Below are positions 9,881 through 59,500 of a stretch of DNA of 64,000 bases, in pieces. The notes under the pieces were generated by a model. It made no database searches and had not been told where the DNA came from. It was given only the letters and a program-made list of their open reading frames with translations. The first letter of the stretch is position 1, and each line of letters begins with the position of its first letter. This DNA is from Hexactinellida sp. DTS-2022 (lineage: Eukaryota; Porifera; Hexactinellida): contig JAPNXP010000002.1 in NCBI GenBank assembly GCA_028753945.1, positions 6,262,001 to 6,326,000 on the forward strand, read 5' to 3'. Made by a program: the position numbers and the translations under genes.

Positions 9881-9886
9881 TTTCCG

Positions 9887-25895: not shown

Positions 25896-25953
25896 GAAAA
25901 TGTTTTTATTACGAAAATTTTATTACGAAAATGTGGAGTAAAATCAATAGCTT

Positions 25954-31900: not shown

Positions 31901-32403
31901 TTAGTTCTTTATTGCTATTGTAGTTTGTTATGTTGGAGAGTTAGGTTTTATTGTTGGTTATCTTTAGTTCTACTCACTTTAAATTAATTAGGTAGCTGTT
32001 CAGGGTTTTAATATTCCATCTTTAGACAATTTGTTAGCAGTTTAGTTCTTTAATCCATAGTTAATTTCATTTGTAAATAAGTTAATTCTTTGCTCCATAA
32101 GTAAGTAAATTAAATCATTCTAAGCTAGGTTTTACAGCTGTTAACCATACTACATAATTTAAGCTTCATTTTTCTCTATTCTTAAGATAACAATTAGATT
32201 CTTCCCAGTTTTTTCTCCATAGTGCACAATTTAGATATTTTTAGCTCGTTGTTTTGTTGATTTTAAGTTAATTAGTGAGATTTAGTTCTTTATTGCTATT
32301 GTAGTTTGTTATGTTGGAGAGTTAGGTTTTATTGTTGGTTATCTTTAGTTCTACTCACTTTAAATTAATTAGGTAGCTGTTCAGGGTTTTAATATTCCAT
32401 CTT
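25954..32403. repeat. Satellite S1: 381-bp tandem array, about 17 near-identical units
   Basis: Unit phase marks (CCATAGTTAATTTCATTTG) recur at 25959, 26340, 26721 and so on, every 381 bases. By eye the units are identical except for one A-to-G change at about 32224 in the last one. AT-rich, with no reading frame. The array ends in the sequence gap, so its true length is unknown. The homogeneity suggests recent amplification or strong gene conversion. Confidence 0.97.
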
Positions 32404-32503: not shown

Positions 32504-35500
32504 TCATTTTGGTAGTTTTTGACAGTCAATGCATACAAAAATTGTTTTTTCTCGATTTAGGCTCTTAAATGAATGTAAATTGAGTGAATTGAGTTTAAGT
32601 GGCACTGATGGGACACTTTTGACAATAAATACTTATTATCATCTTAAGAAACAACTGGAAAAATCCTTAAAATTAAAGTCATCATTTGGTAGTTTTTGAC
32701 AGTCACTGCACAAAAAAATAGTTTTTCTCGATATTAGGATATTTAATGAATGTTCTTCGAGTGAGTGAAGTTACTGTGGCACAGTTAGTTCACTTTTGAC
32801 GACAAATACTTATTATCATCAAAAAAAACAACTTGAAACGTCCTTAAACCATTGAAATATCAATTTGGAAGTTTTTGACAGGCATTGCACACAAAAATAG
32901 TTTTTTCGATATTATGCTCTTAAATGAATGTAGATTGAGTGAATTTAATTTCAGTGGCACTGTTAGGACACCTTTGAGATAAATACTTCTTTTCATCTTA
33001 AGAAACAACTGGAAAATCTTTAAACCATTAACCTAACAATTTCGAAGTTTTTGAGAGTCATTGCACAAAGAAATTGGATTTTCTCGATATTAGGCTAATT
33101 AAATGAATGTAAATTGAGTGAATTGTGTTTCTATGGCACTGTTTGGACACCTTTGACGACAGATATTTCATATCAACAAAAGAAAGAACATGAAACGTCC
33201 TCAAACCATTAATATATCAATTTGGAAGTTTTTGACAGTCATTGGACTCAAAAATAATTTTCTCGATTATTATTTTAAATGAATGTTAATTAATTGAGTG
33301 GAGTTTCAGTATCACTGTAAGTACACTTTTGACGACAAATACTTCTTATCATCAAAAGAAACAACTGGAAAAGTCCTTAAACCAATAATTTATCAATTTG
33401 GGAGTTTTGACAGTCATTGCACACAAAAATTAGATTTTCTCGATATTAGGCCCTTAAATAAATGTAAATTGAGTGAATTGAGTTTCAATGGCCCTGTTTG
33501 GACACTTTTGACTATAGGTACTTCATATCATCACAAGAAACAACTGGAAACGTCCTTAATACTCCAATTTATCAATTTGGGTGTTTTTGACAGTCATTGC
33601 ACACCAAATTAGTTTTTCTCGATATTAGCCGATTAAATGAATGTCAATTGAGTGAATTGAGTTTCAATGGCCATGTTTGGACACATTTGACGATAAATAC
33701 TCATATCATTAAAAGAAACAACTGGAAACGTCCATAAAGCATGAATATATCAATTTGGAAATTTTGACAGTCATTGGACACAAATATAATTTTTCTCGAT
33801 TTCTGAATTTTAAATGAATGTTAATTAATTGAGTGGAGTTACAGTGGCACTGTTAGTACACTTTTGACGACAAATACTTCTTATCATCAAAAGAAACAAC
33901 TGGAAACGTTCTTAAATCATTATTTTATCATTTTGGGAGTTTTTGACAGTCATTGCACATAAAGATAGTTTTTCTCGATATTAGGCTCTTAAATAAATGT
34001 AAATTGAGTGATTCGAGTTTCAGTGGCTCTGTTAGGACACCTTTGGCGATAATTACTTCATATCATCTTAAGAAACAACTGGAAAAATCCTTAAAACTTA
34101 AATTTTTCATTTGGTAGTTTTTGACAGTCACTGCACCCAAAAAATAGTTTTTCGCGATATTAGGATATTAAATGAATGTTCTTCGAGTGAGTGAAGTTAC
34201 TGTGGCACTGTTAGTTCACTTTTGACGACAAATACTTATTATCATCAAAAGAAACAACTTGAAACGTCCTTAAACCATTGAAATATCAACTTGGAAGTTT
34301 TTGACAGGCATTGCACACAAAAATAGTTTTTTCGATATTATGCTCTTAAATGAATGTAGATTGAGTGAATTTAATTTCAGTGGCACTGTTAGGACACCTT
34401 TGAGATAAATACTTCTTTTCATCTTAAGAAACAACTGGAAAATCTTTAAACCATTAACCTAACAATTTCGAAGTTTTTGAGAGTCATTGCACAAAGAAAT
34501 TGGATTTTCTCGATATTAGGCTAATTAAATGAATGTAAATTGAGTGAATTGTGTTTCTATGGCACTGTTTGGACACCTTTGACGACAGATATTTCATATC
34601 AACAAAAGAAAGAACATGAAACGTCCTCAAACCATTGATATATCAATTTGGAAGTTTTTGACAGTCATTGGACACAAAGATTGGTTTTTCTCGTTATTTG
34701 TCTCTTAAATTAATGTAAATTGAGTGAGTGGTGTTTCAGTAGCACTGTCAGGACACCTTTGATGATAAATACTTATTTTCATCTTAAGAAACAACTGGAA
34801 ACGTTCGTAAATCATTAATTTAACATTTTGAGAGTTTTGGACAGTCATTGCACACAAAGATTGGTTTTTCTCGATTTTAGGCTCTTAAATGAATGTTAAT
34901 TGAGTTAGTGGAGTTTCACTGGCACTGTTGGGACTAAACATGATGAATCCTTCATATCATCAAAAGAAACAACTGGAAACGTCCTTAAACGATTAATTTA
35001 TAATTTTGGGAGTTTTTGAGAGTCATTGCACACAGAAATTGGTTTTTCGCGTATATGAGGCTCTAAAATGAATTCAAATTGAGAGAGTGGAGTTTCAATG
35101 GCACTGTTACTACACATTTGAAGACAAAAACTTAATATCATCAAAAGAAACAACTGGAATATACTTAAACCATTAATTTATCAATTTGGAGGTTTTTGAC
35201 AGTCATTCCACACAAAAATAGTTTTACTCGACATTAGGATCTTGAATGAAGGTTAATTGAGTGAATGGAGTTTCATTTTGCACTGTTAGGACACCTTTAA
35301 CGATAAATACTTCTTATCATCATTATAAACAACTGGAAACATCCTAAAACCATTAATTTATCAATTTGGAAGTTTTTGACAGTAATTGCACACAAAAATA
35401 GTTTTTCTCGATATTATCCTCTAAAATGAATGTTAATTGAGTGAGTGGAGTTTCACTGGCACTGTTCGGGCTTTTCATGATAAATCCTTAATATCATCAA

Positions 35501-37305
35501 AAGAAACAACTGGAAACGTCATTAAACCATAAATTTATCAATTTTGGAGTTTTTGACAGTCATTGCACAAATAAGTTCGTTTTTCTCGATATTAGGATCT
35601 TAAAAGAATGTAAATAGAGTTAGTGGAGTTCAGTGGCACTGTTAGGACACTTTTGATGATCAATACTTCATATCATCAAAGGATACAACTGGTAACGTAC
35701 TTAAACCATTAATCTATGAATTTGGGAGTTTTTGATAGTCATTGCAACAAAAATTCGTTTTTCTGGATATTAGACTTTTGAATGAATGTTAATTGATTGA
35801 ATGGAGTTTCAGTGGCACTGTTAGAACACATTTGACGATAAATACTTCTTATCATCAAAAGAAACAACTGTAAACATCCTTAAGGACGTTTCCAGTTGTT
35901 TCTTTTAATGATAATAAGTATTTGTCGTCAAAAGTGTACTAACAGTGTCACTGAAACTCCACTCACTCAATTAACATTCATTTGAGAACCTAATATCGAG
36001 AAAAACTATTTTTGTGTGCCATGACTGTCAAAAACTTCCAAATTGATAAATTAATGGTTTATTGACGTTTCCAGTTGTTTCTTTTGATGACATGAAGTAT
36101 TTATCGTCGATAGTGTCCAAACAGTGCCATCGAAACTGAATTCACTCAATTTACAATCATTTAATTTGCCTAATAACGGCGAAAAACCAATTTTTGTGGC
36201 AATGACTGTCAAAAACTCCAAATATGATAAATTAATGGTTTAACGACGTTACCAGATGTTTCTTTTCATGATAATAAGTATTGACGTCGAATGTGTATTA
36301 ACAGTGCTACTGAAACTCCACTCTCTCATATTGCATTGATTTAAGAGCCTAATTTTCGAGAAATACCACTTTTTGTGTGCATTAATGATTTAAGGATTTT
36401 CCTGTTGTTTCTTAAGATGATAAGAAGTATTTATCCCAAAAGTGTCCTAACAGTGCCACTGAAACTCAATTCACTCAATTTACATTAATTTAATTAGCGT
36501 AATATCGAGAAAAACCAATTGGTGTGCAATGACTGTCTAAAACTCCCAAATTGATAAATTAATGGTTTAACGACCCTTCCAGTTTTTTATTTTGATGATA
36601 ATAATTATTTGGGCCAAAGGTGTACTAACTGTGCCACTGAAACTCCACTCACTAAATTAACATTCATTTATGAGCCATAATATCGGGAAAAACTATTTTT
36701 CTGTGCAATGACTGTCAAAAACTTCCAAATTGATAAATCAATGTTTACGGACGTTTCCATTTGTTTCTTTTAATGATAAGAAGTATTTGTCGTCAAAGGT
36801 GCACTAACAGTGCCAATGAAACTCCACTCACTCAATTAACATTAATTTGAGATCCTAATATCGTGAAAAATTATTTTTGTGTCCAACTCCCTTGACTGTC
36901 AAAAAGTTCCAAATTGATAAATTAGAGTTTTAAGGACGTTTCCAGTTGATACTTTTGATGATATGAAGTATTTATAGTCAAAAGTGTACATACAGAGCCA
37001 TTGAAACTCAATTCACTCAATTTACATTCATTTTATCAGCCTAATATCGAGCAACCCCCATTTTTGAGTGCAAATCACTATCAAACTCCCAAATTGATAA
37101 ATTAATGGTTTAAGGACTTTTCCAGGAGTTTCTTTTGATTAAATGAAGTATTTGGGCCATATTTTGATGATCAATACTTCATATCATCTTAGGATACAAC
37201 TCGTAACGTACTTAAACCATTAATTTATGAATTTGGGAGTTTTTGAAAGTCATTGCAAACAAAAACTCGTTTTTCTGGATATTAGGCTTTTGAATGAATG
37301 CATGA
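32504..37305. repeat. Satellite S2: ~178-bp divergent tandem array with an internal inversion
   Basis: Units carry TTTTTGACAGTCATTGCAC, TTTCTCGATATTAGG, AATGAATGTAAATTGAGTGA, CAGTGGCACTGTTAGGACAC and AAAAGAAACAACTGGAAACG in fixed order, spaced about 178 bp. Orientation is forward from 32504 to about 35881 (about 19 units), reversed from there to about 37155 (about 7 units), then forward to 37305. Individual units are well diverged, but a block near 32690-33270 recurs near 34116-34690, 1426 bp away, which is eight units. The frame 33298-33612 is incidental. Confidence 0.93.
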
Positions 37306-40909: not shown

Positions 40910-41476
40910 TTATTTATTTTTATAAAAAAATAAAACACAAAATAGAAGGGGGTATATAAGAAAAACAACGATTAATAACAAGTTCTGATGGAACTTTAGA
41001 TTATCTACCTCCCTGCGCAAATTGAAAACTTGGTTATTGGTGCGATCCAATTTGTCCCTCACAATGAACATTTCCTTCCTGGTATCCGTCCTCTCTATAC
41101 GATTTTCCTCGACTTCGGAGGCGAATTTACGGGCCGAAAAAGACATTTGTTGTGTGGAAGGTTGTGTGGAAGGTTGTGAGGAAGGTTGTGTGGAAGGTTG
41201 TGTGGAAGGTTGTGTGGAAGGTTGTGAGGAAGGTTGCGAGGAAGGTTGTGTGGAAGGTTGTGTGGAAGGTTGTGTGGAAGGTTGTGAGGAAGGTTGTGTG
41301 GAAGGTTGTGAGGAAGGTTGTGTGGAAGGTTGTGTGGAAGGTTGTGTGGAAGGTTGTGAGGAAGGTTGTGTGGAAGGTTGTGTGGAAGGTTGTGTGGAAA
41401 GTGGTGTGGAAGGCATAATGAAAAAGGTTTGAATATTCTCTTTATATAACATTTTCATTCCAGATCGGAAAGTCAC
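40910..41476 (-). CDS. Putative small tail-anchored protein with (S-T/S-Q-P) repeats
   Basis: An uninterrupted 188-codon frame. Residues 24-107 are about 21 units of Ser-Thr-Gln-Pro or Ser-Ser-Gln-Pro, encoded by a 12-bp DNA repeat. Then comes a charged, coiled-coil-like region (SARKFASEVEENRIERTDTR to NLRREVDNLKFH, residues ~112-160) and one C-terminal hydrophobic segment (LLLIVVFLIYPLLFCVLFF) ending KNK, which fits a tail-anchored membrane protein. A TATA-like TTTATATAA at about 41500 would start transcription between Met1 and Met21, so Met21 (41414-41416) is the likelier start. An AATAAA overlaps the stop codon. I recognise no family. It could be a real lineage-specific gene, or a frame kept open by repeat structure. 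The downstream non-repeat half argues for a gene. Confidence 0.55.
   Translation of the reverse strand: MTFRSGMKMLYKENIQTFFIMPSTPLSTQPSTQPSTQPSSQPSTQPSTQPSTQPSSQPSTQPSSQPSTQPSTQPSTQPSSQPSSQPSTQPSTQPSTQPSSQPSTQPSTQQMSFSARKFASEVEENRIERTDTRKEMFIVRDKLDRTNNQVFNLRREVDNLKFHQNLLLIVVFLIYPLLFCVLFFYKNK
41153..41412. repeat. 12-bp coding minisatellite (GGTTGTGTGGAA)n
   Basis: About 21 units of GGTTGTGTGGAA or GGTTGTGAGGAA, often three of the first to one of the second. Because 12 is divisible by 3 it stays open in several frames, which accounts for the Cys/Glu-rich and Lys/Val-rich frames on the plus strand. Those are shadows. Copy-number change would add or remove four residues of the minus-strand protein. 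Confidence 0.95.
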
Positions 41477-41705
41477 GATTTCATAGCCGAATTGAGAAGA
41501 TTATATAAACTTCCTGTCACATGTAGTTATTGATTCTTGAAAATTAACCTAAATATCTTTTGATGTATTCGGTTGTTATATGCTCTAATCACGATTTCAT
41601 AGCCGAATTGAGAAGAGAATTTATATTTCCTGTCATGTGATTCATGAAAATTTCAAGCAAACGTAAATATCTTTAGTTGATTTCGGTTGCTATAAGCTCC
41701 AATAA
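41474..41705 (-). promoter_or_regulatory. Tandem 116-bp duplication upstream of the repeat protein
   Basis: CACGATTTCATAGCCGAATT begins at 41474 and again at 41590. Each copy includes a TATA-like AT-rich element and TTTCCTGTCA(C/T)(A/G)TG. The duplication lies where the promoter of the minus-strand frame should be. A regulatory role is inferred from position only. Confidence 0.5.
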
Positions 41706-41999
41706 TTATTACAAATGGGATCGTAATGGTGATTACACCATAAGCCCGTTGACCCGTTGAAAGCTAACTTCTGGGTAGAATTTGAATTTTCATCAATTTG
41801 TTTACCTAATTTAGGTAAACAACAACAACAAATATTCATATTATAAATTTATAATTGCGAAATTCGAAAACAGCATACTTATTTACCTATTATAATTATC
41901 ATTTGTTTACCAATTAAAACTTTGAAAGTTAGTTTATATCTCAAATATAAATACGGTTTCTATTCCCCATCACTTTAATACAATCCGGACACACACACA

Positions 42000-42200
42000 A
42001 ACAAACACACAACGAGATTTAATAATACGAGCCCTTCGGGGTCGGTCGCTTTGCGACGGATCACTCTCTCACAAAGGCCGCTTCGCGAACTTTGTTCGTT
42101 CGTGGTGGACATTATGAAATACAAATAACGGCAGCCTTGCGGCCTTACCCACCGTGAGGTAAAACAGAATAGAAAAAACCCCTCACAGACGGGATGGGAG
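42000..42200. other. Cluster of GC-rich short hairpins
   Basis: Several compact palindromes sit in AT-rich DNA: GCCCTTCGGGGTC, GGTCGCTTTGCGACGG, GGCCGCTTCGCG, GAACTTTGTTCGTTC and GGCAGCCTTGCGGCC, followed by TTACCCACCGTGAGGTAA. The 98-residue minus frame (41975-42271) has no recognised motif. The regular series suggests a transposon end or a structured RNA. Unidentified. A short (CA)n run precedes it (41988-42010). Confidence 0.5.
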
Positions 42201-42376
42201 TGTGCTCCTTCTGATTGCACTTCCCCAATGTTTAATTTAACTAGAATTTCAATATTCAAATTACATTTCATCTTAGTGTAATAGAATTTATTAATGTTTG
42301 AATTAATTAAAGATTAATTACTTGGAAATGATCGAAAAGTAAAGATTTCAAAGTATAGTCGACTTTAATAAATAAC

Positions 42377-42508
42377 ACATAAAAACGACTAAACTAATAA
42401 ATCTAACGAAACAAACTAATACATAAAAACGACTAAACTAATAAATCTAACGAAACAAACTAATACATAAAAACGACTAAACTAATAAATCTAACGAAAC
42501 AAACACAC
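42377..42508. repeat. 44-bp tandem repeat, three copies
   Basis: ACATAAAAACGACTAAACTA starts at 42377, 42421 and 42465. The three units are essentially identical. Confidence 0.93.
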
Positions 42509-42649
42509 TGCATAAAAACTAAATTAATGATAAATATGTGTAGTTTAGTCCTCCTTAACAATAGGGTGTCCAACCATATCGATAATATCCTCTCTATAAA
42601 CAAAACAGAAAATAAATATAAAATCCTAATTTACTAATAATAAATACAT

Positions 42650-42815
42650 TAGCAGTTTAGAACCTCATTAGTATGAACAAGGTTAATACGAAAACTATCA
42701 GTCCTTTAAAGCCTTTTCAATACAAATGATATTCGTTAATACGAATTCCGGATAAGGCGTACGTATTTTGACAGTTTACTAGTGTTCTTACTAACGAAGT
42801 TCCAGCGTAGGTATA
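42650..42815. mobile_element. Probable pogo-like MITE
   Basis: GAACCTCATTAGTATGAACA on the left and, read from the right, GAACTTCGTTAGTAAGAACA match at 16 of 20 positions. Internal GTTAATACGAA units resemble pogo-like sub-terminal motifs. Edges are approximate. Confidence 0.5.
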
Positions 42816-43327
42816 TAAAATAGCAAGCTTACATTGTAGCCACGTCCCCGGGGCTGGTAGTATCTTGGCTATAAACCGAAAAAAAAACAATTCAAAAAAT
42901 AAGGATAAATATATTTTTACCATTCTTACTTAATTATATTTCCTCAAAGAATAAATTATTAAACATCAAAAGTATGTAACTGGATAACTTACAGTGTTTT
43001 GGTCCCCACTATTACACTGAGTAGACCCATTTCACAGTGGCTCAAATTGGCAATAATGGCGGAATAGGTATTTTGGTGCATGCTAGCGATATATAATGTA
43101 TTATTGGCCTATATATTATCGACCAAACCAATTCATTTGACATTATCAAAATTTGTCTGTGGCTTCTATTTTGACATATAATGACGTCACAACCGACTAC
43201 CATATTTGGTATTATTTACTTACTGAATAGGTTTCAGCATAGATTATGTAATTACCTAATTCCAATAGCACGCTATTGTTATGAATAATACTATGATCAA
43301 TTTCCACTTGAACATACATCACAAATC

Positions 43328-45599
43328 CTATTCTAATATGAATGAATTCACTAACAAATCATCTTCACTTAGGCTAACTACATTTAATTTGTTATTTGTT
43401 TTTTCAGCCAACTTTCTGTAACTTGAAAGTATAGGGCCACTTTGGCTTACAAGACTAAGAAAAATATCTTTGATATTGTCTTGAAAATTAAACTTCCTTG
43501 AAAGTCTCTCCCTATACCTCCTCACATATTTGTTCAGCGATTCAATTCTTTCTTCTGAAATAATTTCAGACCACATCCGTTGCTATGTACAGCAATTAGT
43601 TCGACTGAATGTGCTAGCAGCTTATGCAAAGACGGTGTGATGCTGACCCAGGGAAATTCTTTCAGTATATACTGATAAGTTTCGTTACAAAAATTATCAA
43701 GTTTAAGGGTGTCGAGTTTTGAGCTGCTATTATACAAGCGCAAGATAACAGAAATATTTTTCTGAATTAAAGCCATTGAAGATTTGTCCTCTGGTAACAA
43801 AGAAGAAGTTGCCCATCTTATGAAATCCTTTTCATTATGAAAACAGGATCGCGCTATATTTCCAGTGGAACTAGTTCCACCATCACATGAAGGGATATTT
43901 ATATGTATACCAGTTTTCTCCAATAATAGAGTGCGCATTCTTTTCATAGACTGGTGTATCTTTGCAGATGTAGGAGACCACTTTCTTTGTCCTGCATCTA
44001 AATGCTAAATTAGTAACATGAACCACCTAAACACACAGAGGTAGCTATGCAATGGTGAGGCAGATAGGATGTTAATATTTGACATTGGAAGATGAGTTAA
44101 GCCATATCTCATCTCGGAAGGAAGCTTCAAAAATTCTTCTTCATTAACATCGTTGAAAATGTCGATTGCATCTTTCACATGCCTATTTATAGGATAGCCA
44201 CACTCAACCAACTCCATGTCTTTAAGTTGCTCTCGGGTTGCTGTACATAGCTGACAAGATGCACCTCCAGCTCCACTTAAAAAACCGGACATTTTACCGT
44301 CGAACATAGTTCTCTTCACTTTGACGTCTAAACCAATTGTTTCCAGGATATGAGTATCTGGGTTAATCAATTTATCCATTAAGTAATGAACATTCTCCAG
44401 ATTTTCCTTCTGAGCAACTAATGCGGCAGGGCCGTAAACACCAAAATCAAAGTGGTCAGGTTTATCTGGCCAACCTGACCGAGTGGTGCCATATTGGGAA
44501 AATTCAACAACCAAAAGTGGTCAGGTTGAAACCTGACCAACCTGACCAGTGGCTACGGCCCTGTGCTATTGGCATTGTTACAAAGGGTGAATTTGGAGAA
44601 GGATTTGTCCAAATTTCGTTTCCTGTTTTGTCGACTAAAGACAAGGCTTTAAATGCAAAAAGGATAAAAGATTTGGTCGAGAGATTCGAATTAGTTGGTG
44701 CCTGGTTATAGATTCGATGAGATCCTGAGCCGTCTAAGCCATCAGCTATGGTTAATTTAATCGGAAACTGAAATTCTTGAGGGACAGGGTTGAGTGCTAA
44801 CAATCGTTCAGTAGTGATACTAACCAACTTTGAATATGGTATGCCGACACCAATTGCAACTCCATCTTCATTGTGTAACATTTCCATACAATTAGCTGAA
44901 GCTATGTCATTTCTGTGTGCAGCAACTCTTGCATACCCAGGAAATCGTATTTCTTCGGACTTGCAAATACGGCGTAGGTTAGTGTATTTTTTCTTTCCTA
45001 TTTCGAGATCAGATAGGCCGCTTTCTCTAATGGAAAATCTTTCGTTTGGTTCCCTACATTTCCACTTGCAATTTCTTTGGGAATTTTAGCAGACTCCCTA
45101 TCATAACTTACATTGGAAATAGATTGTAATGCAAGAGCTGCGATAGTCTTAGGGTCTGTATTCTCCCTATCAGCAAGAAAAGAAATGTGATCTAATAATA
45201 CAGATAAATGTGTTCTAACTGATTGAAATGTGAGTTCTGAAATTGGTTTCCTACTGTCACTTGAACGAGATTCTACGGATGAAATAGAATTCAACATTTC
45301 ACAATCAGATTTACGTTTTTTGGAAGGGTTACTAGCTGCGGGATGATAGAAAGACATCTCTTCCCATGTGGTTAGGTTAGGTCATTATTTCGGACAAATT
45401 CTCTACGAACACCTACCAAATCCTTAAATTTCTTGTTCAGGAGTGTGTATTCAGATTCGGGTAAATCAAACAATTCTAGGATATTTCGAGTTGCTTTACG
45501 ACAATTATCTTCGCAATTTTGAAGAAAACCTCTAGCTTCCTGATTATTCATAATATGAAATAAATGATAAATAGAATGGTGTACTTTAGTTACAAGCAA
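43328..45599 (-). pseudogene. Decayed RAG1-like/Transib transposase
   Basis: Minus-strand frames 45599-45372, 45357-44998, about 45045-44504, 44514-43534 and 43576-43328 join into one protein of roughly 700 residues. Landmarks in order: RESGLSDLEIGKKKYTNLRR, IADGLDGSGSHRIYNQ (candidate first D, 44741-44743, or the D three residues on), IWTNPSPNS, KRTMFDGKMSG (second D, 44299-44301), GAGGASCQLCTAT (CxxC), GGTSSTGNIARSCF, TPSLHKLLAH, SEERIESLNKYVRRYRER (E, 43541-43543). The GAGG-xC-xLCTA form resembles RAG1-like proteins. Damage: a break near 45365, a frameshift near 45045, a MITE at 44425-44563, an in-frame TAG at 44005-44007 and a frameshift near 43560. Catalytic positions survive, so decay seems moderate. 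Confidence 0.87.
44425..44563. mobile_element. 139-bp MITE inside the RAG1-like coding region
   Basis: Ends are CAGGGCCGTA on the left (44427) and the inverted CAGGGCCGTAGCC from the right, with internal TGGTCAGGTT and AACCTGACCA palindromes. TGC occurs at both sides (44422-44424, 44564-44566), a possible 3-bp target duplication. Element plus one TGC is 142 bp, which is exactly the frame offset between the two flanking transposase frames. Confidence 0.75.
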
Positions 45600-46458
45600 G
45601 ATCTAAGTTAGAAATGTAAACAAATTCTGAATGAAATATATATACGTATATTGGGAAGATTAATGAATTCATATGATTGCGTATTATAATATTGATTACT
45701 GCATAACAACAATTTGTAGCGATCGCTAGGCAACGCATGCACCATATAGCAATTTACTAAAATTAATCACTAATTAATGTGCCAAATCATTGTATACACA
45801 TGTTTTATATTAGTAATGAATATCAACTGTATTTCTAAGCTTGATCCGTTAATAAAAAGTGACAACCAATAATGAGTGATAATATGGGGTTACGGGTACA
45901 CAACGAAAATCGGTGACACCCATAATGATATTTGAAAATAATACTTTAGTCATCTTTCGTCACTCTGAAATGGTATTATTTTCATATTAGGATATCCAAT
46001 GAATCATTTCATAATAAAAAGCTTTTGGTCCAGGATAGTCCAATATAACTTTCTGATATTTAGAATACGCAATCATCATATTTTATCTTCGGAGAATCCT
46101 TATGAATGAATACGTATAATTACAAAGCTAATTTTAACACACGAACCTGGAAAGAACTAGAAATGAAATTCAGAATTAGATGAGTCAATTCAAATGAAAT
46201 GGAGTTCATAAGATCCAGTTATAATTGAAATTCAGATGATTTTATCTTGACTCATTTTTTGAGAATTATTTTAGAAATCTTGTTATCATTTTACAGCCAC
46301 ACTCGAATTGCTAGTGTATTACAACCAATCATAATATTAACAATACAGTTCTGAATTATTGGGGTTTCAATATTGCTCTTCACGATTTTGGAATCAATTC
46401 ATAGATTTGAGAGGATCATAAAAATTCCTATTCAGCCATATATTCCCACTGTGCATTT

Positions 46459-47544
46459 TTCTATAAACCCAATTAAATCTATAATTTACATATTTTCAGA
46501 AATATAAAAGAAACTAGACTATCCCCAGGGCTATTTTTCTGGATACCTTTTTGGAGGTTGGCTGTACTCCACCGCAATTGGTCGTCGTATACATTTAAGT
46601 CTAGAGAAAGTGTACTCCTAATCGGTATAATAATTGATTTCAATGATATTTATTTAAAGTTAGATCTACATACTTTAAATGTATTGAATGCTAAAAGATT
46701 GACAGAATGGTAAATAGAAATCGATTAGAGGGTGGATACTGGAAAGAGGCTGAAAAGGATTTAATGGGGCGTCTGGGACGCTATAATAATTTGTCATTCC
46801 AGTATTACAAACTTAAGTGACTTGCTACAAGAGGAACAGAATTAAAATTACCTAACATTTCCCTGAATAAGAGTGAAGAAGAAATAAGAATGAAGAAGCG
46901 ATGGCATTGTATTTCATGAAATGGTCTTCAGTGCTGATTCACTGCTGAACAGCTTCAGAAGCGGATTGCTCACCTTGAGGGTCTACAAGGTTAGAGTATA
47001 TAACATTATTATGTTATAATCATATTCCTAACTGAGTAACAGTACAGTATATGTTGTATTTTTATTTATACATTAATTTTTGGTATAGTTTTGAAAAAAT
47101 ATATATGCTACATACATATTTTATGAACTCAAAGTCCTAATATACTAGTTTTACCCTTCCGAGTTGGGAGGGGGAGTCTGAAGGACAGTTAAGCAGTTCT
47201 GCTATTTAGTTACGGATAATACATGATAATACATTATACCCATTGATCAATACCGTTGGGAAGTACAACAATTCAAATTTTTAGACAGAGTTTATCATTA
47301 TTGTATACCAAGCGTAAGCGAATCGCAGATATATAAATTCACTAATATATACTTTCCCTCAATAGGTTACTTGAAATTTGAAAGTTGTATGTTGCAAACC
47401 GGCCAAAATGGCGAACTGTTTTAAGGTACCAGGGAGGTTATAAATAATACTCAACCTTTAAATAAGTACATATTGCATTATTGTATCATGGTTAATAACA
47501 AGTAACAAATTTACACCTGCAAAACTCGGTTGAAACTTTTTATT
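46459..47544. other. Spacer with a possible decayed coding fragment at 46690-47000
   Basis: Mostly featureless. At 46690-47000 on the plus strand, stretches read like charged, coiled-coil protein (KEAEKDLMGRLGRYNN, NKSEEEIRMKKRWH, TAEQLQKRIAHLEGLQG) broken by stops. This could be a pseudogene fragment or an isolated exon. I recognise no family and confidence is low. Confidence 0.3.
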
Positions 47545-50500
47545 TAATGTTCTGGAATAAATAGAACAACAATGACTACAAGTGATATAACAAGTCACAA
47601 ACAGAATTCAATTTATTGATGTATTAAAGAGTTCAAACATTTGACAAAGGAACAGATAACTTCAGGGAAAAGTGCAGAATATGTAACTTGTAGAGCAATC
47701 AGACAATTCAAAATAGACTTCCGGATAAATAGACAGCAATAACTACAAGTGTTACAACGAGTCACTAAACGAGTTTGAATTTATTGATGTATCAAAGAGT
47801 TCAAACATTTGACAAAGTAACAGATAACTTCAGAAAAAACTGCAGAATATGTAACTTGCAGAACAATCAGACAATTCACAACAGACTTGCGGATAAATAG
47901 ACAAAAATTACTACAAGTGTTATAACGAGTCACTGCCGGTATACAGTATATTGATGTATCAAAGAGTTCAAACATTTCACAAAGGAACTGATAACTTCAG
48001 GGAAAGTGCAGAATATGTAACTTGCAGAACAATCAGACAATTCACAACAGACTTCCGGATAAATAGACAAAAATTACTTCTAGTGTTATAACGAGTCACT
48101 GCCGGTATACAGTTTATTGTTGTATCAAAGAGTTCAAACATATGACAAAGGAATAGATAACTTCAGGGAAAAGTGCAGAATATATAACTTGTAGAACAAA
48201 CAGAGAATTCACAAAGACTTCCGGATAAATAGACAAAAATTACTACTAGTGTTATAACGAGTCACTGCCGGTATACAGTTTATTGATGTATCAAAGAGTT
48301 CAAACATATGACAAAGGAATAGATAACTTCAGGGAAAAGTGCAGAATATATAACTTGTAGAACAAACAGAGAATTCACAAAGACTTCCGGATAAATAGAC
48401 AACAATTACAACAAGTGTTACAACGAGTTACTGAACAGAATTCAATTTATTGATGTATCAAAGAGTTCAAACATTTGACAAAGCAACAGATAACTTCAGG
48501 GAAAAGTGCAGAATATGTAACTTGTAGAACAAACAGAGAATTCACAAAGACTTCCGGATAAATAGACAACAATTACAACAAGTGGTATAACGAGTTACTG
48601 AACAGAATTCAATTTATTGATGTATCAAAGAATTCAAAAATTTCATATAGGAACAGATAATTTCAGAAAAAACTGCAGAATATGTAACTTGCAGAACAAT
48701 CAGACAATTCACAACAGACTTCCGGATAAATAGACAAAAATTACTACTAGTGTTATAACGAGTCACTGCCGGTATACAGTTTATTGATGTATCAAAGAGT
48801 TCAAACATATGACAAAGGAATAGATAACTTCAGGGAAAAGTGCAGAATATATAACTTGTAGAACAAACAGAGAATTCACAAAACCTTCCGGATAAATAGA
48901 CAAAAATTACTACTAGTGTTATAACGAGTCACTGCCGGTATACAGTTTATTGATGTATCAAAGAGTTCAAACATATGACAAAGGAATAGATAACTTCAGG
49001 GAAAAGTGCAGAATATATAACTTGTAGAACAAACAGAGAATTCACAAAGACTTCCGGATAAATAGACAACAATTACTACTAGTGTTATAACGAGTCACTG
49101 CCGGTATACAGTTTATTGATGTATCAAAGAGTTCAAACATATGACAAAGGAATAGATAACTTCAGGGAAAAGTGCAGAATATATAACTTGTAGAACAAAC
49201 AGAGAATTCACAAAGACTTCCGGATAAATAGACAACAATTACAACAAGTGTTACAACGAGTTACTGAACAGAATTCAATTTATTGATGTATCAAAGAATT
49301 CAAACATTTCACAAAGGAACAGATAACTTCAGAAAAAACTGCAGAATATGTATCTTGCAGAACAATCAGACAATTCACAACAGACTTCCGGATAAATAGA
49401 CAACAATTACAACAAGTGGTATAACGAGTTACTGAACAGAATTCAATTTATTGATGTATCAAAGAATTCAAACATTTCACAAAGGAACAGATAACTTCAG
49501 AAAAAACTGCAGAATATGTAACTTGCAGAACAATCAGACAATTCACAACAGACTTCCGGATAAATAGACAAAAATTACTACTAGTGTTATAACGAGTCAC
49601 TGCCGGTATACAGTTTATTGATGTATCAAAGAGTTCAAACATATGACAAAGGAATAGATAACTTCAGAGAAAAGTGCAGAATATATAACTTGTAGAACAA
49701 ACAGAGAATTCACAAAGACTTCCGGATAAATAGACAAAAATTACTACTAGTGTTATAACGAGTCACTGCCGGTATACAGTTTATTGATGTATCAAAGAGT
49801 TCAAACATATGACAAAGGAATAGATAACTTCAGGGAAAAGTGCAGAATATATAACTTGTAGAACAAACAGAGAATTCACAAAGACTTCCGGATAAATAGA
49901 CAAAAATTACTACTAGTGTTATAACGAGTCACTGCCGGTATACAGTTTATTGATGTATCAAAGAGTTCAAACATATGACAAAGGAATAGATAACTTCAGG
50001 GAAAAGTGCAGAATATATAACTTGTAGAACAAACAGAGAATTCACAAAGACTTCCGGATAAATAGACAAAAATTACAACAAGTGTTACAACGAGTTACTG
50101 AACAGAATTCAATTTATTGATGTATCAAAGAATTCAAACATTTCACAAAGGAACAGATAACTTCAGAAAAAACTGCAGAATATGTATCTTGCAGAACAAT
50201 CAGACAATTCACAACAGACTTCCGGATAAATAGACAAAAATTACTACTAGTGTTATAACGAGTCACTGCCGGTATACAGTTTATTGATGTATCAAAGAGT
50301 TCAAACATATGACAAAGGAATAGATAACTTCAGGAAAAGTGCAGAATATGTAACTTGTAGACCAATCAGACAATTCACAAAGACTTCCGGATAAATAGAC
50401 AAAAATTACTACTAGTGTTATAACGAGTCACTGCCGGTATACAGTTTATTGATGTATCAAAGAGTTCAAACATATGACAAAGGAATAGATAACTTCAGGG

Positions 50501-53500
50501 AAAAGTGCAGAATATATAACTTGTAGAACAAACAGAGAATTCACAAAGACTTCCGGATAAATAGACAACAATTACAACAAGTGGTATAACGAGTTTCTGA
50601 ACAGAATTCAATTTATTGATGTATCAAAGAATTCAAACATTTCACAAAGGAACAGATAACTTCAGAAAAAACTGCAGAATATGTATCTTGCAGAAGAATC
50701 AGACAATTCACAACAGACTTCCGGATAAATAGACAAAAATTACTTCTAGTGTTATAACGAGTCACTGCCGGTATACAGTTTATTGATGTATCAAGGAGTT
50801 CAAACATATGACAAAGAAATAGATAACTTCAGGAAAAGTGCAGAATATGTAACTTGTAGACCAATCAGACAATTCACAATTGACTTCAGGATAAATAGAC
50901 AACAATTACTACAAGTGTTATAACGAGTCACTAAACGGAATTCAGTTTATTGATGTATCAAAGAGTTCAAACATTTTACAAAGGAACAGATACCTTCAGG
51001 GAAAAGTGCATAATATGAAATTTGCAGAACAATCAGACAATTCACAATAGACTTCCGAAATAAATAGACAACAATTACTACAAGTGTTACAACGAGTCAC
51101 TAAACGGGTTTGAATTTATTGATGTATCAAAGAGTTCAAACATTTGACAAAGCAACAGATAACTTCAGGGAAAAGTGCAGAATATGTAACTTGTAGAACA
51201 AACAGAGAATTCACAAAGACTTCCGGATAAATAGACAACAATTACAACAAGTGGTATAACGAGTTACTGAACAGAATTCAATTTATTGATGTATTAAAGA
51301 ATTCAAACATTTCACAAAGGAACAGATAACTTCAGAAAAAACTGCAGAATATGTAACTTGCAGAACAATCAGACAATTCACAACAGACTTCCGGATAAAT
51401 AGACAAAAATTACTACTAGTGTTATAACGAGTCACTGCCGGTATACAGTTTATTGATGTATCAAAGAGTTCAAACATATGACAAAGGAATAGATAACTTC
51501 AGGGAAAAGTGCAGAATATGTATCTTGCAGAACAAACAGAGAATTCACAAAGACTTCCGGATAAATAGACAACAATTACAACAAGTGTTACAACGAGTTA
51601 CTGAACAGAATTCAATTTATTGATGTATCAAAGAATTCAAACATTTCGCAAAGGAACAGATAACTTCAGAAAAAACTGCAGAATATGTATCTTGCCGAAC
51701 AATCAGACAATTCACAACAGACTTCCGGATAAATAGACAAAAATTACTACTAGTGTTATAACGAGTCACTGCCGGTATAAAGTTTATTGATGTATCAAAG
51801 ATTTCAAACATATGACAAAGGAATAGATAACTTCAGGAAAAGTGCAGAATATGTAACTTGTAGACCAATCAGACAATTCACAATTGACTTCAGGATAAAT
51901 AGACAACAATTACTACAAGTGTTATAACGAGTCACTAAACGGAATTCAGTTTATTGATGTATCAAAGAGTTCAAACATTTTACAAAGGAACAGATACCTT
52001 CAGGGAAAAGTGCAGAATATGTAACTTGTAGAACAAACAGAGAATTCACAAAGACTTCCGGATAAATAAACAACAATTACAACAAGTGTTACACAGTGTT
52101 TGCCAGAAAAGACCACCCCGGAAAAAACCCCCTGGAAAAAACCGGAAAAAACCGGTTTTTTCCACCCCGGAAAAGGGCAGTAAATTTGGAAAAAACCACT
52201 TATGACCATATATGGCCACACTGCATGCCAATTCATGGTCAGCTTCTATATGCAAGAGACAGATTTTCTAAAGATACCAAATAATCATTTAAAAGTAATC
52301 TAACCGTGTGAAAAATATCAAATTGTGGAATAAACATTTATTTACTATAGACAGTAAAATAGTATCCGCACTGTCACCGAAATATAATAATAATGCGAGG
52401 CCAGTAAATAGAAAAAGGCAGAAAAGTCCAGAAAAGGGCGGTTTTTTCTGGAAAAAACCGGTTTTTTCCACCTGCCCCGGGCTTTTCTAGAAAAGGGCGG
52501 TTTTTTCCGAACACTGGTGTTAGAACGAGTTACTGAACGGAATTCAATTTATTGATGTATCAAAGAATTCAAACATTTCACAAAGGAACAGATAACTTCA
52601 GAAAAAACTGCAGAATATGTATCTTGCAGAACAATCAGACAATTCACAATAGACTTCCGAAATAAATAGACAACAATTACTACAAGTGTTACAACGAGTC
52701 AGTAAACGGGTTTGAATTTATTGATGTATCAAAGAGTTCAAACATTTGACAAAGTAACAGATAACTTCAGGGAAAAGTGCAGAATATGTAACTTGTAGAA
52801 CAAACAGAGAATTCACAAAGACTTCCGGATAAATAGACAACAATTACAACAAGTGGTATAACGAGTTACTGAACAGAATTCAATTTATTGATGTATCAAA
52901 GAATTCAAACATTTCACAAAGGAACAGATAACTTCAGAAAAAACTGCAGAATATGTAACTTGCAGAACAATCAGACAATTCACAACAGACTTCCGGATAA
53001 ATAGACAAAAATTACTACTAGTGTTATAACGAGTCACTGCCGGTATACAGTTTATTGATGTATCAAAGAGTTCAAACATATGACAAAGGAATAGATAACT
53101 TCAGGGAAAAGTGCAGAATATATAACTTGTAGAACAAACAGAGAATTCACAAAGATTTCCGGATAAATAGACAAAAATTACTACTAGTGTTATAACGAGT
53201 CACTGCCGGTATACAGTTTATTGATGTATCAAAGAGTTCAAACATATGACAAAGGAATAGATAACTTCAGGGAAAAGTGCAGAATATATAACTTGTAGAA
53301 CAAACAGAGAATTCACAAAGACTTCCGGATAAATAGACAACAATTACAACAAGTGGTATAACGAGTTTCTGAACAGAATTCAATTTATTGATGTATCAAA
53401 GAATTCAAACATTTCACAAAGGAACAGATAACTTCAGAAAAAACTGCAGAATATGTATCTTGCAGAACAATCAGACAATTCACAACAGACTTCCGGATAA

Positions 53501-56500
53501 ATAGACAAAAATTACTTCTAGTGTTATAACGAGTCACTGCCGGTATACAGTTTATTGATGTATCAAGGAGTTCAAACATATGACAAAGAAATAGATAACT
53601 TCAGGAAAAGTGCAGAATATGTAACTTGTAGACCAATCAGACAATTCACAATTGACTTCAGGATAAATAGACAACAATTACTACAAGTGTTATAACGAGT
53701 CACTAAACGGAATTCAGTTTATTGATGTATCAAAGAGTTCAAACATTTTACAAAGGAACAGATACCTTCATGGAAAAGTGCATAATATGAAATTTGCAGA
53801 ACAATCAGACAATTCACAATAGACTTCCGAAATAAATAGACAACAATTACTACAAGTGTTACAACGAGTCACTAAACGGGTTTGAATTTATTGATGTATC
53901 AAAGAGTTCAAACATTTGACAAAGTAACAGATAACTTCAGAAAAAACTGCAGAATATGTATCTTGCAGAACAATCAGACAATTCACAATAGACTTCCGAA
54001 ATAAATAGACAACAATTACTACAAGTGTTACAACGAGTCACTAAACGGGTTTGAATTTATTAATGTATCAAAGAGTTCAAACATTTGACAAAGCAACAGA
54101 TAACTTCAGGGAAAAGTGCAGAATATGTAACTTGTAGAACAAACGGAGAATTCACAAAGACTTCCGGATAAATAGACAACAATTACAACAAGTGGTATAA
54201 CGAGTTACTGAACAGAATTCAATTTATTGATGTATCAAAGAATTCAAACATTTCACAAAGGAACAGATAACTTCAGAAAAAACTGCAGAATATGTAACTT
54301 GCAGAACAATCAGACAATTCACAACAGACTTCCTGGTTAAATAGACAAAAATTACTACTAGTGTTATAACGAGTCACTGCCGGTATACACTTTATTGATG
54401 TATCAAAGAGTTCAAACATTTGACAAAGCAACAGATAACTTCAGGGAAAAGTGCAGAATATGTAACTTGTAGAACAAACAGACAATTCACAATTGACTTC
54501 AGGATAAATAGACAACAATTAAAACAAGTGTTACAACGAGTCACTACCGGAATTCAGTTTATTGATGTATCAAAGAGTTCAAACATTTGACAAAGGAACA
54601 AATAACTTCAGTAAAACTGCAGAATATGTAACTTGTAGAACAATAGACAATTCACTATAGACTTCAGGATAAATAGACAACAATTAATACAAGTGGTACA
54701 ACGAGTTAGTAAACGGAAATCAATTTATTGATGTATCAACGAGTTCAAACATTTCACAAAGGAACAGATAACTTCAGGGAAAAGTGCAGAATATGAAACT
54801 TGCAGAACAATCAGGCAATTCACAAAGACTTCCGGATAAATAGACAAAAATTACTACTAGTGTTATAACGAGTCACTGCCGGTATACAGTTTATTGATGT
54901 ATCAAAGAGTTCAAACATATGACAAAGGAATAGATAACTTCAGGGAAAAGTGCAGAATATATAACTTGTAGAACAAACAGAGAATTCACAAAGACTTCCG
55001 GATAAATAGACAACAATTACAACAAGTGGTATAACGAGTTTCTGAACAGAATTCAATTTATTGATGTATCAAAGAATTCAAACATTTCACAAAGGAACAG
55101 ATAACTTCAGAAAAAACTGCAGAATATGTATCTTGCAGAACAATCAGACAATTCACAACAGACTTCCGGATAAATAGACAAAAATTACTACTAGTGTTAT
55201 AACGAGTCACTGCCGGTATACAGTTTATTGATGTATCAAGGAGTTCAAACATATGACAAAGAAATAGATAACTTCAGGAAAAGTGCAGAATATGTAACTT
55301 GTAGACCAATCAGACAATTCACAATTGACTTCAGGATAAATAGACAACAATTACTACAAGTGTTATAACGAGTCACTAAACGGAATTCAGTTTATTGATG
55401 TATCAAAGAGTTCAAACATTTTACAAAGCAACAGATAACTTCAGGGAAAAGTGCATAATATGAAATTTGCAGAACAATCAGACAATTCACAATAGACTTC
55501 CGAAATAAATAGACAACAATTACTACAAGTGTTACAACGAGTCACTAAACGGGTTTGAATTTATTGATGTATCAAAGAGTTCAAACATTTGACAAAGTAA
55601 CAGATAACTTCAGAAAAAACTGCAGAATATGTATCTTGCAGAACAATCAGACAATTCACAATAGACTTCCGAAATAAATAGACAACAATTACTACAAGTG
55701 TTACAACGAGTCACTAAACGGGTTTGAATTTATTAATGTATCAAAGAGTTCAAACATTTGACAAAGCAACAGATAACTTCAGGGAAAAGTGCAGAATATG
55801 TAACTTGTAGAACAAACGGAGAATTCACAAAGACTTCCGGATAAATAGACAACAATTACAACAAGTGGTATAACGAGTTACTGAACAGAATTCAATTTAT
55901 TGATGTATCAAAGAATTCAAACATTTCACAAAGGAACAGATAACTTCAGAAAAAACTGCAGAATATGTAACTTGCAGAACAATCAGACAATTCACAACAG
56001 ACTTCCGGATAAATAGACAACAATTACTACTAGTGTTATAACGAGTCACTGCCGGTATACACTTTATTGATGTATCAAAGAGTTCAAACATTTGACAAAG
56101 CAACAGATAACTTCAGGGAAAAGTGCAGAATATGTAACTTGTAGAACAAACAGACAATTCACAATTGACTTCAGGATAAATAGACAACAATTAAAACAAG
56201 TGTTACAACGAGGCACTACCGGAATTCAGTTTATTGATGTATCAAAGAGTTCAAACATTTGACAAAGGAACAGATAACTTCAGTAAACTGCAGAATATGT
56301 AACTTGTAGAACAATAGACAATTCACTATAGACTTCAGGATAAATAGACAACAATTAATACAAGTGGTACAACGAGTTAGTAAACGGAAATCAATTTATT
56401 GATGTATCAACGAGTTCAAACATTTCACAAAGGAACAGAGAACTTCAGGGAAAAGTGCAGAATATGTAACTTGTAGAGCAATCAGACAATTCAAAATAGA

Positions 56501-59500
56501 CTTCCGGATAAATAGACAAAAATTACTACAAGTGGTACAACGAGTTAGTAAACGGAAATCAATTTATTGATGTATCAACGAGTTCAAACATTTCACAAAG
56601 GAACAGATAACTTCAGGGAAAAGTGCAGAATATGAAACTTGCAGAACAATCAGGCAATTCACAAAGACTTCCGGATAAATAGACAAAAATTACTACTAGT
56701 GTTATAACGAGTCACTGCCGGTATACAGTTTATTGATGTATCAAAGAGTTCAAACATATGACAAAGAAATAGATAACTTCAGGAAAAGTGCAGAATATGT
56801 AACTTGTAGAACAAACAGAGAATTCACAAAGACTTCCGGATAAATAGACAACAATTACAACAAGTGGTATAACGAGTTTCTGAACAGAATTCAATTTATT
56901 GATGTATCAAAGAATTCAAACATTTCACAAAGGAACAGATAACTTCAGAAAAAACTGCAGAATATGTATCTTGCAGAACAATCAGACAATTCACAACAGA
57001 CTTCCGGATAAATAGACAAAAATTACTACTAGTGTTATAACGAGTCACTGCCGGTATACAGTTTATTGATGTATCAAGGAGTTCAAACATATGACAAAGA
57101 AATAGATAACTTCAGGAAAAGTGCAGAATATATAACTTGTAGAACAAACAGAGAATTCACAAAGACTTCCGGATAAATAGACAACAATTACAACAAGTGG
57201 TATAACGAGTTTCTGAACAGAATTCAATTTATTGATGTATCAAAGAATTCAAACATTTCACAAAGGAACAGATAACTTCAGAAAAAACTGCAGAATATGT
57301 ATCTTGCAGAACAATCAGACAATTCACAACAGACTTCCGGATAAATAGACAAAAATTACTACTAGTGTTATAACGAGTCACTGCCGGTATACAGTTTATT
57401 AATGTATCAAAGAGTTCAAACATATGACAAAGGAATAGATAACTTCAGGGAAAAGTGCAGAATATATAACTTGTAGAACAAACAGAGAATTCACAAAGAC
57501 TTCCGGATAAATAGACAACAATTACAACAAGTGGTATAACGAGTTTCTGAACAGAATTCAATTTATTGATGTATCAAAGAATTCAAACATTTCACAAAGG
57601 AACAGATAACTTCAGAAAAAACTGCAGAATATGTATCTTGCAGAACAATCAGACAATTCACAACAGACTTCCGGATAAATAGACAAAAATTACTACTAGT
57701 GTTATAACGAGTCACTGCCGGTATACAGTTTATTGATGTATCAAGGAGTTCAAACATATGACAAAGAAATAGATAACTTCAGGAAAAGTGCAGAATATGT
57801 AACTTGTAGACCAATCAGACAATTCACAATTGACTTCAGGATAAATAGACAACAATTACTACAAGTGTTATAACGAGTCACTAAACGGAATTCAGTTTAT
57901 TGATGTATCAAAGAGTTCAAACATTTTACAAAGCAACAGATAACTTCAGGGAAAAGTGCATAATATGAAATTTGCAGAACAATCAGACAATTCACAATAG
58001 ACTTCCGAAATAAATAGACAACAATTACTACAAGTGTTACAACGAGTCACTAAACGGGTTTGAATTTATTGATGTATCAAAGAGTTCAAACATTTGACAA
58101 AGTAACAGATAACTTCAGAAAAAACTGCAGAATATGTATCTTGCAGAACAATCAGACAATTCACAACAGACTTCCGGATAAATAGACAAAAATTACTACT
58201 AGTGTTATAACGAGTCACTGCCGGTATACAGTTTATTGATGTATCAAAGAGTTCAAACATATGACAAAGGAATAGATAACTTCAGGGAAAAGTGCAGAAT
58301 ATATAACTTGTAGAACAAACAGAGAATTCACAAAGACTTCCGGATAAATAGACAAAAATTACTACTAGTGTTATAACGAGTCACTGCCGGTATACAGTTT
58401 ATTGATGTATCAAAGAGTTCAAACATATGACAAAGGAATAGATAACTTCAGGGAAAAGTGCAGAATATATAACTTGTAGAACAAACAGAGAATTCACAAA
58501 GACTTCCGGATAAATAGACAACAATTACAACAAGTGGTATAACGAGTTTCTGAACAGAATTCAATTTATTGATGTATCAAAGAATTCAAACATTTCACAA
58601 AGGAACAGATAACTTCAGAAAAAACTGCAGAATATGTATCTTGCAGAACAATCAGACAATTCACAACAGACTTCCGGATAAATAGACAAAAATTACTTCT
58701 AGTGTTTTAACGAGTCACTGCCGGTATACAGTTTATTGATGTATCAAGGAGTTCAAACATATGACAAAGAAATAGATAACTTCAGGAAAGTGCAGAATAT
58801 GTAACTTGTAGACCAATCAGACAATTCACAATTGACTTCAGGATAAATAGACAACAATTACTACAAGTGTTATAACGAGTCACTAAACGGAATTCAGTTT
58901 ATTGATGTATCAAAGAGTTCAAACATTTTACAAAGGAACAGATACCTTCAGGGAAAAGTGCATAATATGAAATTTGCAGAACAATCAGACAATTCACAAT
59001 AGACTTCCGAAATAAATAGACAACAATTACTACAAGTGTTACAACGAGTCACTAAACGGGTTTGAATTTATTGATGTATCAAAGAGTTCAAACATTTGAC
59101 AAAGTAACAGATAACTTCAGAAAAAACTGCAGAATATGTATCTTGCAGAACAATCAGACAATTCACAATAGACTTCCGAAATAAATAGACAACAATTACT
59201 ACAAGTGTTACAACGAGTCACTAAACGGGTTTGAATTTATTAATGTATCAAAGAGTTCAAACATTTGACAAAGCAACAGATAACTTCAGGGAAAAGTGCA
59301 GAATATGTAACTTGTAGAACAAACGGAGAATTCACAAAGACTTCCGGATAAATAGACAACAATTACAACAAGTGGTATAACGAGTTACTGAACAGAATTC
59401 AATTTATTGATGTATCAAAGAATTCAAACATTTGACAAAGCAACAGATAACTTCAGGGAAAAGTGCAGAATATGTAACTTGTAGAACAAACAGACAATTC

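Follow-up and report, generated by a model that had tools for sequence, protein, structure and literature searches.

The Transib superfamily is the origin of the antibody-gene (V(D)J) recombinase, and the locus described here bears on whether the asymmetric V(D)J signals needed RAG2 or came ready-made from a transposon. It lies in a stretch of 64,000 nucleotides from the glass sponge Hexactinellida sp. DTS-2022 (assembly GCA_028753945.1, contig JAPNXP010000002.1, positions 6,262,001 to 6,326,000), hereafter called the window. A preliminary description had noticed there a transposon with recombination-signal-like ends and had suggested that this copy may be an informative intermediate on the way to RAG1. 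We are nearly certain that the segment at 43033-46453 is a Transib-superfamily transposon of the cut-and-paste kind, decayed yet complete at both termini, for which we propose a mechanism below.

The claim that the element runs from end to end was borne out by our analysis, since CACAGTGG reads inward at both 43033 and 46453 and the ends are exact. The RSS-type heptamer CACAGTG is contained in CACAGTGG at both tips, and CATTT is duplicated exactly, immediately outside both termini. The window copy has, in other words, the CAC-starting, RSS-heptamer-like ends and the 5-bp target-site duplication of a Transib. We further checked the ends on other copies in the host genome, using as query the element with 600 bp of window flank per side. 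Eight of the 17 sister loci fetched give matches that begin at 43033, one (L016) gives a match from 43030, and in five the matches finish at 46452-46454, coinciding with the two termini within 3 bp; at none of the 17 did homology continue beyond the element into either flank. Genome copies with ends elsewhere, which would have counted against the preliminary description, were therefore not seen: sister homology ends at 43033 and 46453. The preliminary description made no mention of the 139-bp insertion, of the bipartite and asymmetric make-up of the ends, of the conserved inner block at one of them or of the flanks common to three identical copies, all of which are presented here.

Table 1. 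Coordinates of the transposon and its parts in the window
Feature	Positions	Strand	Remarks
Whole Transib-superfamily element	43033-46453	-	3421 bp; transposase gene on the minus strand
Target-site duplication, left	43028-43032		CATTT, exact
3'-end tip	43033-43040	+	CACAGTGG, including heptamer CACAGTG; C-terminal side of transposase
Second block, 3' end	43056-43074	+	ATGGCGGAATAGGTATTTT; 24-42 bp from tip, GAATAG core from 30
Inner block, 3' end	43096-43122	+	ATGTATTATTnGnnTATnGGTTATCnA with 2 mismatches
Palindrome	43182-43189		TGACGTCA; 150 bp from 3' tip
Transposase piece 6	43328-43582	-	Catalytic Glu in SEERIESLNK; C-terminus LLVNSFILE
Transposase piece 5	43534-44004	-	CDGGTSSTGNIAR motif
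Transposase piece 4	44005-44424	-	Second catalytic Asp in TMFDGKM; zinc motif GAGGASCQLCTA; equivalent of RAG1 alpha11-12
Inserted 139-bp element	44425-44563		Inverted ends CAGGGCCGTA/TACGGCCCTG; TGC duplication on flanks
Transposase piece 3	44565-45085	-	First catalytic Asp in ADGLDGSG
Transposase piece 2	44998-45381	-	Equivalent, by eye, of the relatives' RAG1 nonamer-binding-domain region at about 45094-45252
Transposase piece 1	45372-45602	-	N-terminal, MNNQEAR...
Second block, 5' end	46421-46439	-	ATGGCTGAATAGGAATTTT; 15-33 bp from tip, GAATAG core from 21
5'-end tip	46446-46453	-	CACAGTGG, reading inward; N-terminal side of transposase
Target-site duplication, right	46454-46458		CATTT, exact

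The element holds one minus-strand transposase gene, which we found broken into six pieces in changing frames, rather than the five segments counted before, and further interrupted by the 139-bp insertion. The latter is missing from the sister copies, whose alignments jump from query position 1392 to 1532. The three acidic catalytic residues proposed earlier are present in three separate pieces and align with those of HzTransib, amphioxus RAG1L and RAG1, the RAG1 residues being D600, D708 and E962 according to PMC6941560. The motif previously read in the coding remnant was likewise found, as GAGGASCQLCTA. The window copy has whole ends but cannot encode a whole transposase, and it could be mobile at most by means of a relative's enzyme. 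Elsewhere in the window, a GC-rich stretch (44%) with long frames at 9306-10938 resembles, by eye, a hAT-type transposase, while a 12-bp tandem repeat at 41149-41413 lies within a minus-strand frame of 196 aa that contains STQP-type repeats. No Rfam match was found within the window. EF2 of the host genome scores about 1465 bits against its best PDB chains (7oya, 9b0s and 4v6w, from animals) and 1244 against that of yeast, which makes an animal host likely; COX1 was not found in the assembly, and 400-bp samples of six contig ends are free of simple telomere repeats.

Searched with 156 aa of the window transposase, the 112-Mb host genome revealed a large population of relatives, of which we scored 150 of 439 candidate places, so that the counts are lower bounds. 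Uninterrupted frames of 711-757 aa occur in 13 of these 150 matches and frames of 616-665 aa in six more. All 13 intact-frame loci were fetched and fall into several families, each represented by one to three fetched copies. In nine of the 13 the fetched stretch contains the two tips together with a 5-bp duplication, and in the other four (L071, L073, L079 and L081) a single tip. PMC4411706 gives 'one or at most a few' intact copies per host as typical of autonomous Transibs, a number that the host total exceeds. One profile scan each of a bacterial and a viral contig collection returned 41 and 31 pattern stretches, respectively, and zero relatives.

We then surveyed 29 loci for CACNNTG tips and a duplication, and both were found in 11, with every duplication matching at five of five bases; five loci were passed over for want of a frame, and the rest lack one or both tips or, like L084 and L019, have both tips but no matching duplication. 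Together with the window copy this gives 12 elements, whose duplications read CATTT (window), CATTT, CTGTT, CATTA, GGTTA, CAGTA, GACGG, TAGTA, GGGCA, AAATG, GTCTC and CGATG. CACAGTGG stands at both tips in 12 of 12, in a set that had been selected by its CACNNTG tips. Across 3.08 kb, L072 and L077 have 99.1% identity; they differ in contig, flanks and duplication (CATTT vs TAGTA), and such near-identity at different sites with unrelated flanks shows a recent jump among the relatives. We also observed that a different Transib element of 3512 bp (L012:2012-5523, with a CGATG duplication) separates the two parts of a window-family copy.

The two ends of each element were compared with each other beyond position 12, at offsets from -20 to +20 and with 1000 shuffles. 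In 10 of the 12 elements the best block common to both ends lies 9 or 10 bp deeper at one end, which amounts to nine of 11 families because L072 and L077 are one family. The window copy has ends made asymmetric by an offset of 9 bp, and none of its 1000 shuffles was equally good. The shuffle P does not exceed 0.002 in seven families; for L072 it is 0.037 and for L075 0.16, and the remaining two of the 11 families, L076 (P 0.26) and L080 (P 0.23), do not display the offset. Under a stricter score, the L075 offset ties with another and the L072 offset comes second to the tip match itself. In eight of the 11 families the distance from the tip to the hexamer RADTAG, picked after the sequences had been inspected, is 20-21 bp at the 5' end and 30-31 bp at the 3' end, which places it 12-13 bp and 22-23 bp after the heptamer, respectively; of the other three, L020 carries the hexamer at its 3' end alone, and L076 and L080 at neither end.

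The offset corresponds to about one helical turn, as in the 12/23 signals of V(D)J recombination, with which the elements also have the CACAGTG heptamer in common. The consensus nonamer of those signals is ACAAAAACC. In the window copy no nonamer was found 12 or 23 bp from the heptamer, where we see instead a different block, with its GAATAG core at 13 and 22 bp; unlike the nonamer, the block varies among families, and one end carries an extra inner block. The ends of an algal RAGL element are described as 4/13 (PMC9435367), an offset that is likewise close to one helical turn.

This inner block, ATGTATTATTnGnnTATnGGTTATCnA, stands 63-64 bp from the 3' tip with zero to three mismatches in 10 of the 12 elements, the exceptions being L012 (five mismatches) and L020 (first ten bases exact, remainder out of register), while the 5' ends match it with 8-10 mismatches at best. 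The mean information at positions 61-90 is 1.0 bit per column, compared with 0.62 and 0.58 alongside. In the genome, the tip plus the first ten bases of the inner block occur 96 times, against zero for the reversed-pattern control, and the inner block with up to two mismatches occurs 194 times, against three in the control. Our guess is that it is a recognition site marking the 3' end. Further in, the palindrome TGACGTCA is placed 148-150 bp from the 3' tip in seven of 11 families; L037 and L074 have a second one 158 bp deeper, and L040 has it at the 5' end too.

We propose that the catalytic core of the transposase would bind the CACAGTG heptamer and that its RAG1-like nonamer-binding domain would bind the second, family-specific block. 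One short-spaced end would then be paired with one long-spaced end, cutting would take place at the heptamers, and the element would integrate elsewhere, at a target opened with a 5-bp stagger. In this scheme, how the DNA is cut, how two unlike ends come to be paired and how the nonamer-like domain recognises the block are all modelled on HzTransib and RAG. It is possible, and we put it forward tentatively, that in this RAG2-less population a nonamer-binding domain of RAG1 type enforces a 12/23-like pairing between unlike ends, with the block co-evolving with this domain in each family and the inner 3' block distinguishing the ends. The families are related by descent, so the nine out of 11 are not independent events, and this common ancestry, together with the existence of symmetric-ended Transibs noted in PMC8355894, would fit an offset that is inherited and has no role in unlike-end pairing. 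We regard the latter as rather unlikely, given that the block changes from family to family while its two occurrences in any one element match each other at the same offset, and that it beats at least 98% of the 1000 shuffles in seven of the 11 families.

Several traits of the transposase resemble those of RAG1. The stretch between the zinc CxxC and the next His motif counts 65 residues in the window copy and 65-66 in 19 of 20 genome copies including it (the twentieth, L020, is truncated). Mouse RAG1 has 64 residues there and amphioxus RAG1L 60, as against 30 for HzTransib, 13 of which are deduced from the chain numbering. The stretch comprises the alpha11-12 region, the RAG2-binding stretch, which is present in Subgroup I and bacterial Transibs and not in Subgroup II (Tao et al. 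2022, PMC9435367); the window copy has this region, a trait of Subgroup I. A profile built from 12 segments upstream of the core and run against 177,635 PDB sequences found as its best match the RAG1 nonamer-binding domain 3gna, at an E of 0.003 that is weak in absolute terms, and 16 of the 18 PDB matches listed were RAG1. A nonamer-like domain has been reported in both Transib subgroups (PMC9435367). On the other hand, the CTT1 tail of Subgroup I (Cys-Cys-Gly-His-Cys) is absent from the last piece of the window copy. Eight of the 13 intact relatives possess this motif; among these 13 and the window copy, it is lacking in the window family, L037, L040, L076 and L081 and is unclear in L073. A short C-terminal peptide resembling LLVNSLL was seen in L037, L040, L047, L048, L071, L074-L079 and the window copy, with or without the CTT1 motif.

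The length of the zinc-domain stretch, the CTT1-type Cys/His tail of those eight relatives and the asymmetry of the ends would all suit a RAG1-like (RAGL) transposon that has lost its RAG2 and belongs, as one of the branches, to the RAG1L clan instead of to the Transibs. We consider this very improbable. When a profile of nine relatives was compared with all PDB sequences, HzTransib was matched at 7.6e-44, amphioxus RAG1L at 1.5e-19 and RAG1 from 1.5e-13 (1, 1 and 16 of the 18 matches listed, respectively), which places HzTransib 24 orders of magnitude above RAG1L. These matches fall within the Transib/RAG1 group, and the catalytic columns, those of the window copy included, agree with a DDE core related to that group. 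Moreover, in a tree of 426 columns relating the genome copies to three references (HzTransib, RAG1L and RAG1), small, unrooted and with long reference branches, RAG1L and RAG1 pair at 100/100 and stand with HzTransib apart from the genome copies at 98.8/99. Neither profile nor tree put the transposase inside the RAG1 clan. The same tree unites the window copy and L020, L021 and L025 at 100/100, and adds L037 and L040 to them at 99.5/99.

The same traits have, besides, been published for RAG2-less Subgroup I Transibs (PMC9435367), and the absence of a visible RAG2 partner, already remarked upon, was upheld. In nine intact elements with both ends, a second ATG-started frame never exceeded 97 aa, a scan of unspliced frames that leaves a spliced gene possible; as far as these frames go, the elements have a single transposase gene and no RAG2L partner of the kind found within RAGL elements. 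A Pfam RAG2 search of the genome gave zero matches, as did its control.

The assignment of the window copy to the Transibs can be made, by sequence comparison, through its relatives. Pfam RAG1 matched none of its six pieces, and of two pieces compared with the PDB one matched HzTransib no better than weakly (E 0.16), and the second picked up an unrelated enzyme. Among relatives, Pfam RAG1 gave one match, below the cut-off, with three proteins, two past the cut-off with four, and matches at E 0.01 or better for eight of nine.

The host genome contains three 100% identical copies of the element, on C11, C12 and C18, besides many older ones. That these reflect a recent jump of the element itself, as their number and identity on three contigs might suggest, is scarcely credible, as the identity spans window 41533-47953, with 1.5 kb of flank per side and the duplication included, and the block lies next to satellite arrays. 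On C12 and C18 the identity further extends to 300-bp samples for window 40001 and 52001, but not to those for 301, 15301 and 30301. At the sites expected for the latter three samples, C18 gave no match or 55 bp and C12 had 84-89% satellite matches elsewhere; samples for window 63001 match satellite at other positions. Since the copies have their flanks in common, they represent a duplicated block and no transposition, and we read it as a pericentromere-like duplication or an assembly duplication. The adjoining arrays are a 381-bp satellite at 25953-32403 (99% matches), 179-bp satellites at 32504-37154 and a satellite of about 167 bp (alternatively 334 bp) that fills the right end of the window, 47557-64000.

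Considering the known systems, HzTransib has one gene and heptamer-type tips. Its catalytic core and motifs (PDB 6pqn and five further entries) are alike by sequence; it differs in the shorter zinc-domain stretch, and the solved chain aligns only downstream of the nonamer-like region. ProtoRAG with its BbRAG1L (PDB 6b40) is similar in the core by sequence, in its zinc-domain stretch and in its 5-bp duplications, whereas its CTT motif is matched by only part of the relatives, its RAG2 gene was not seen in the elements here and the profile match is weaker. The population as a whole is close to the published Subgroup I Transibs, resembling them in the lack of RAG2, the asymmetric ends, the alpha11-12 stretch and the nonamer-like domain, and in part of the relatives also in CTT1, the trait that the window family does not share. 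The inner block of the 3' end goes unmentioned in the main text of PMC9435367.

The preliminary description stands in so far as it saw a Transib-superfamily transposon, running from end to end, that has RSS-type heptamers and no RAG2 in sight; the idea that the window copy is an informative intermediate is not supported. This is a dead copy, its match to HzTransib is far above those to RAG1L and RAG1, and RSS-like tips with 5-bp duplications are normal for a Transib. The idea has substance at the level of the population, whose members combine the zinc-domain stretch, the nonamer-domain-like region and asymmetric ends. Tao et al. 2022 (PMC9435367) had described these traits in the Subgroup I Transibs of other hosts, and suggest that this subgroup may consist of intermediates.

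Altogether, the window copy is ordinary, and what is unusual is the population to which it belongs, large and intact in part, with a RAG1-like architecture, unequal ends and no visible RAG2. PMC8355894 names some Transibs as the only systems apart from RAG in which a 12/23 asymmetry is known. The many RAG2-less transposases with matched pairs of ends found here, several of them with whole frames, open the question to direct assay. If 12/23-like pairing does take place in this population, the 12/23 rule would predate RAG2.
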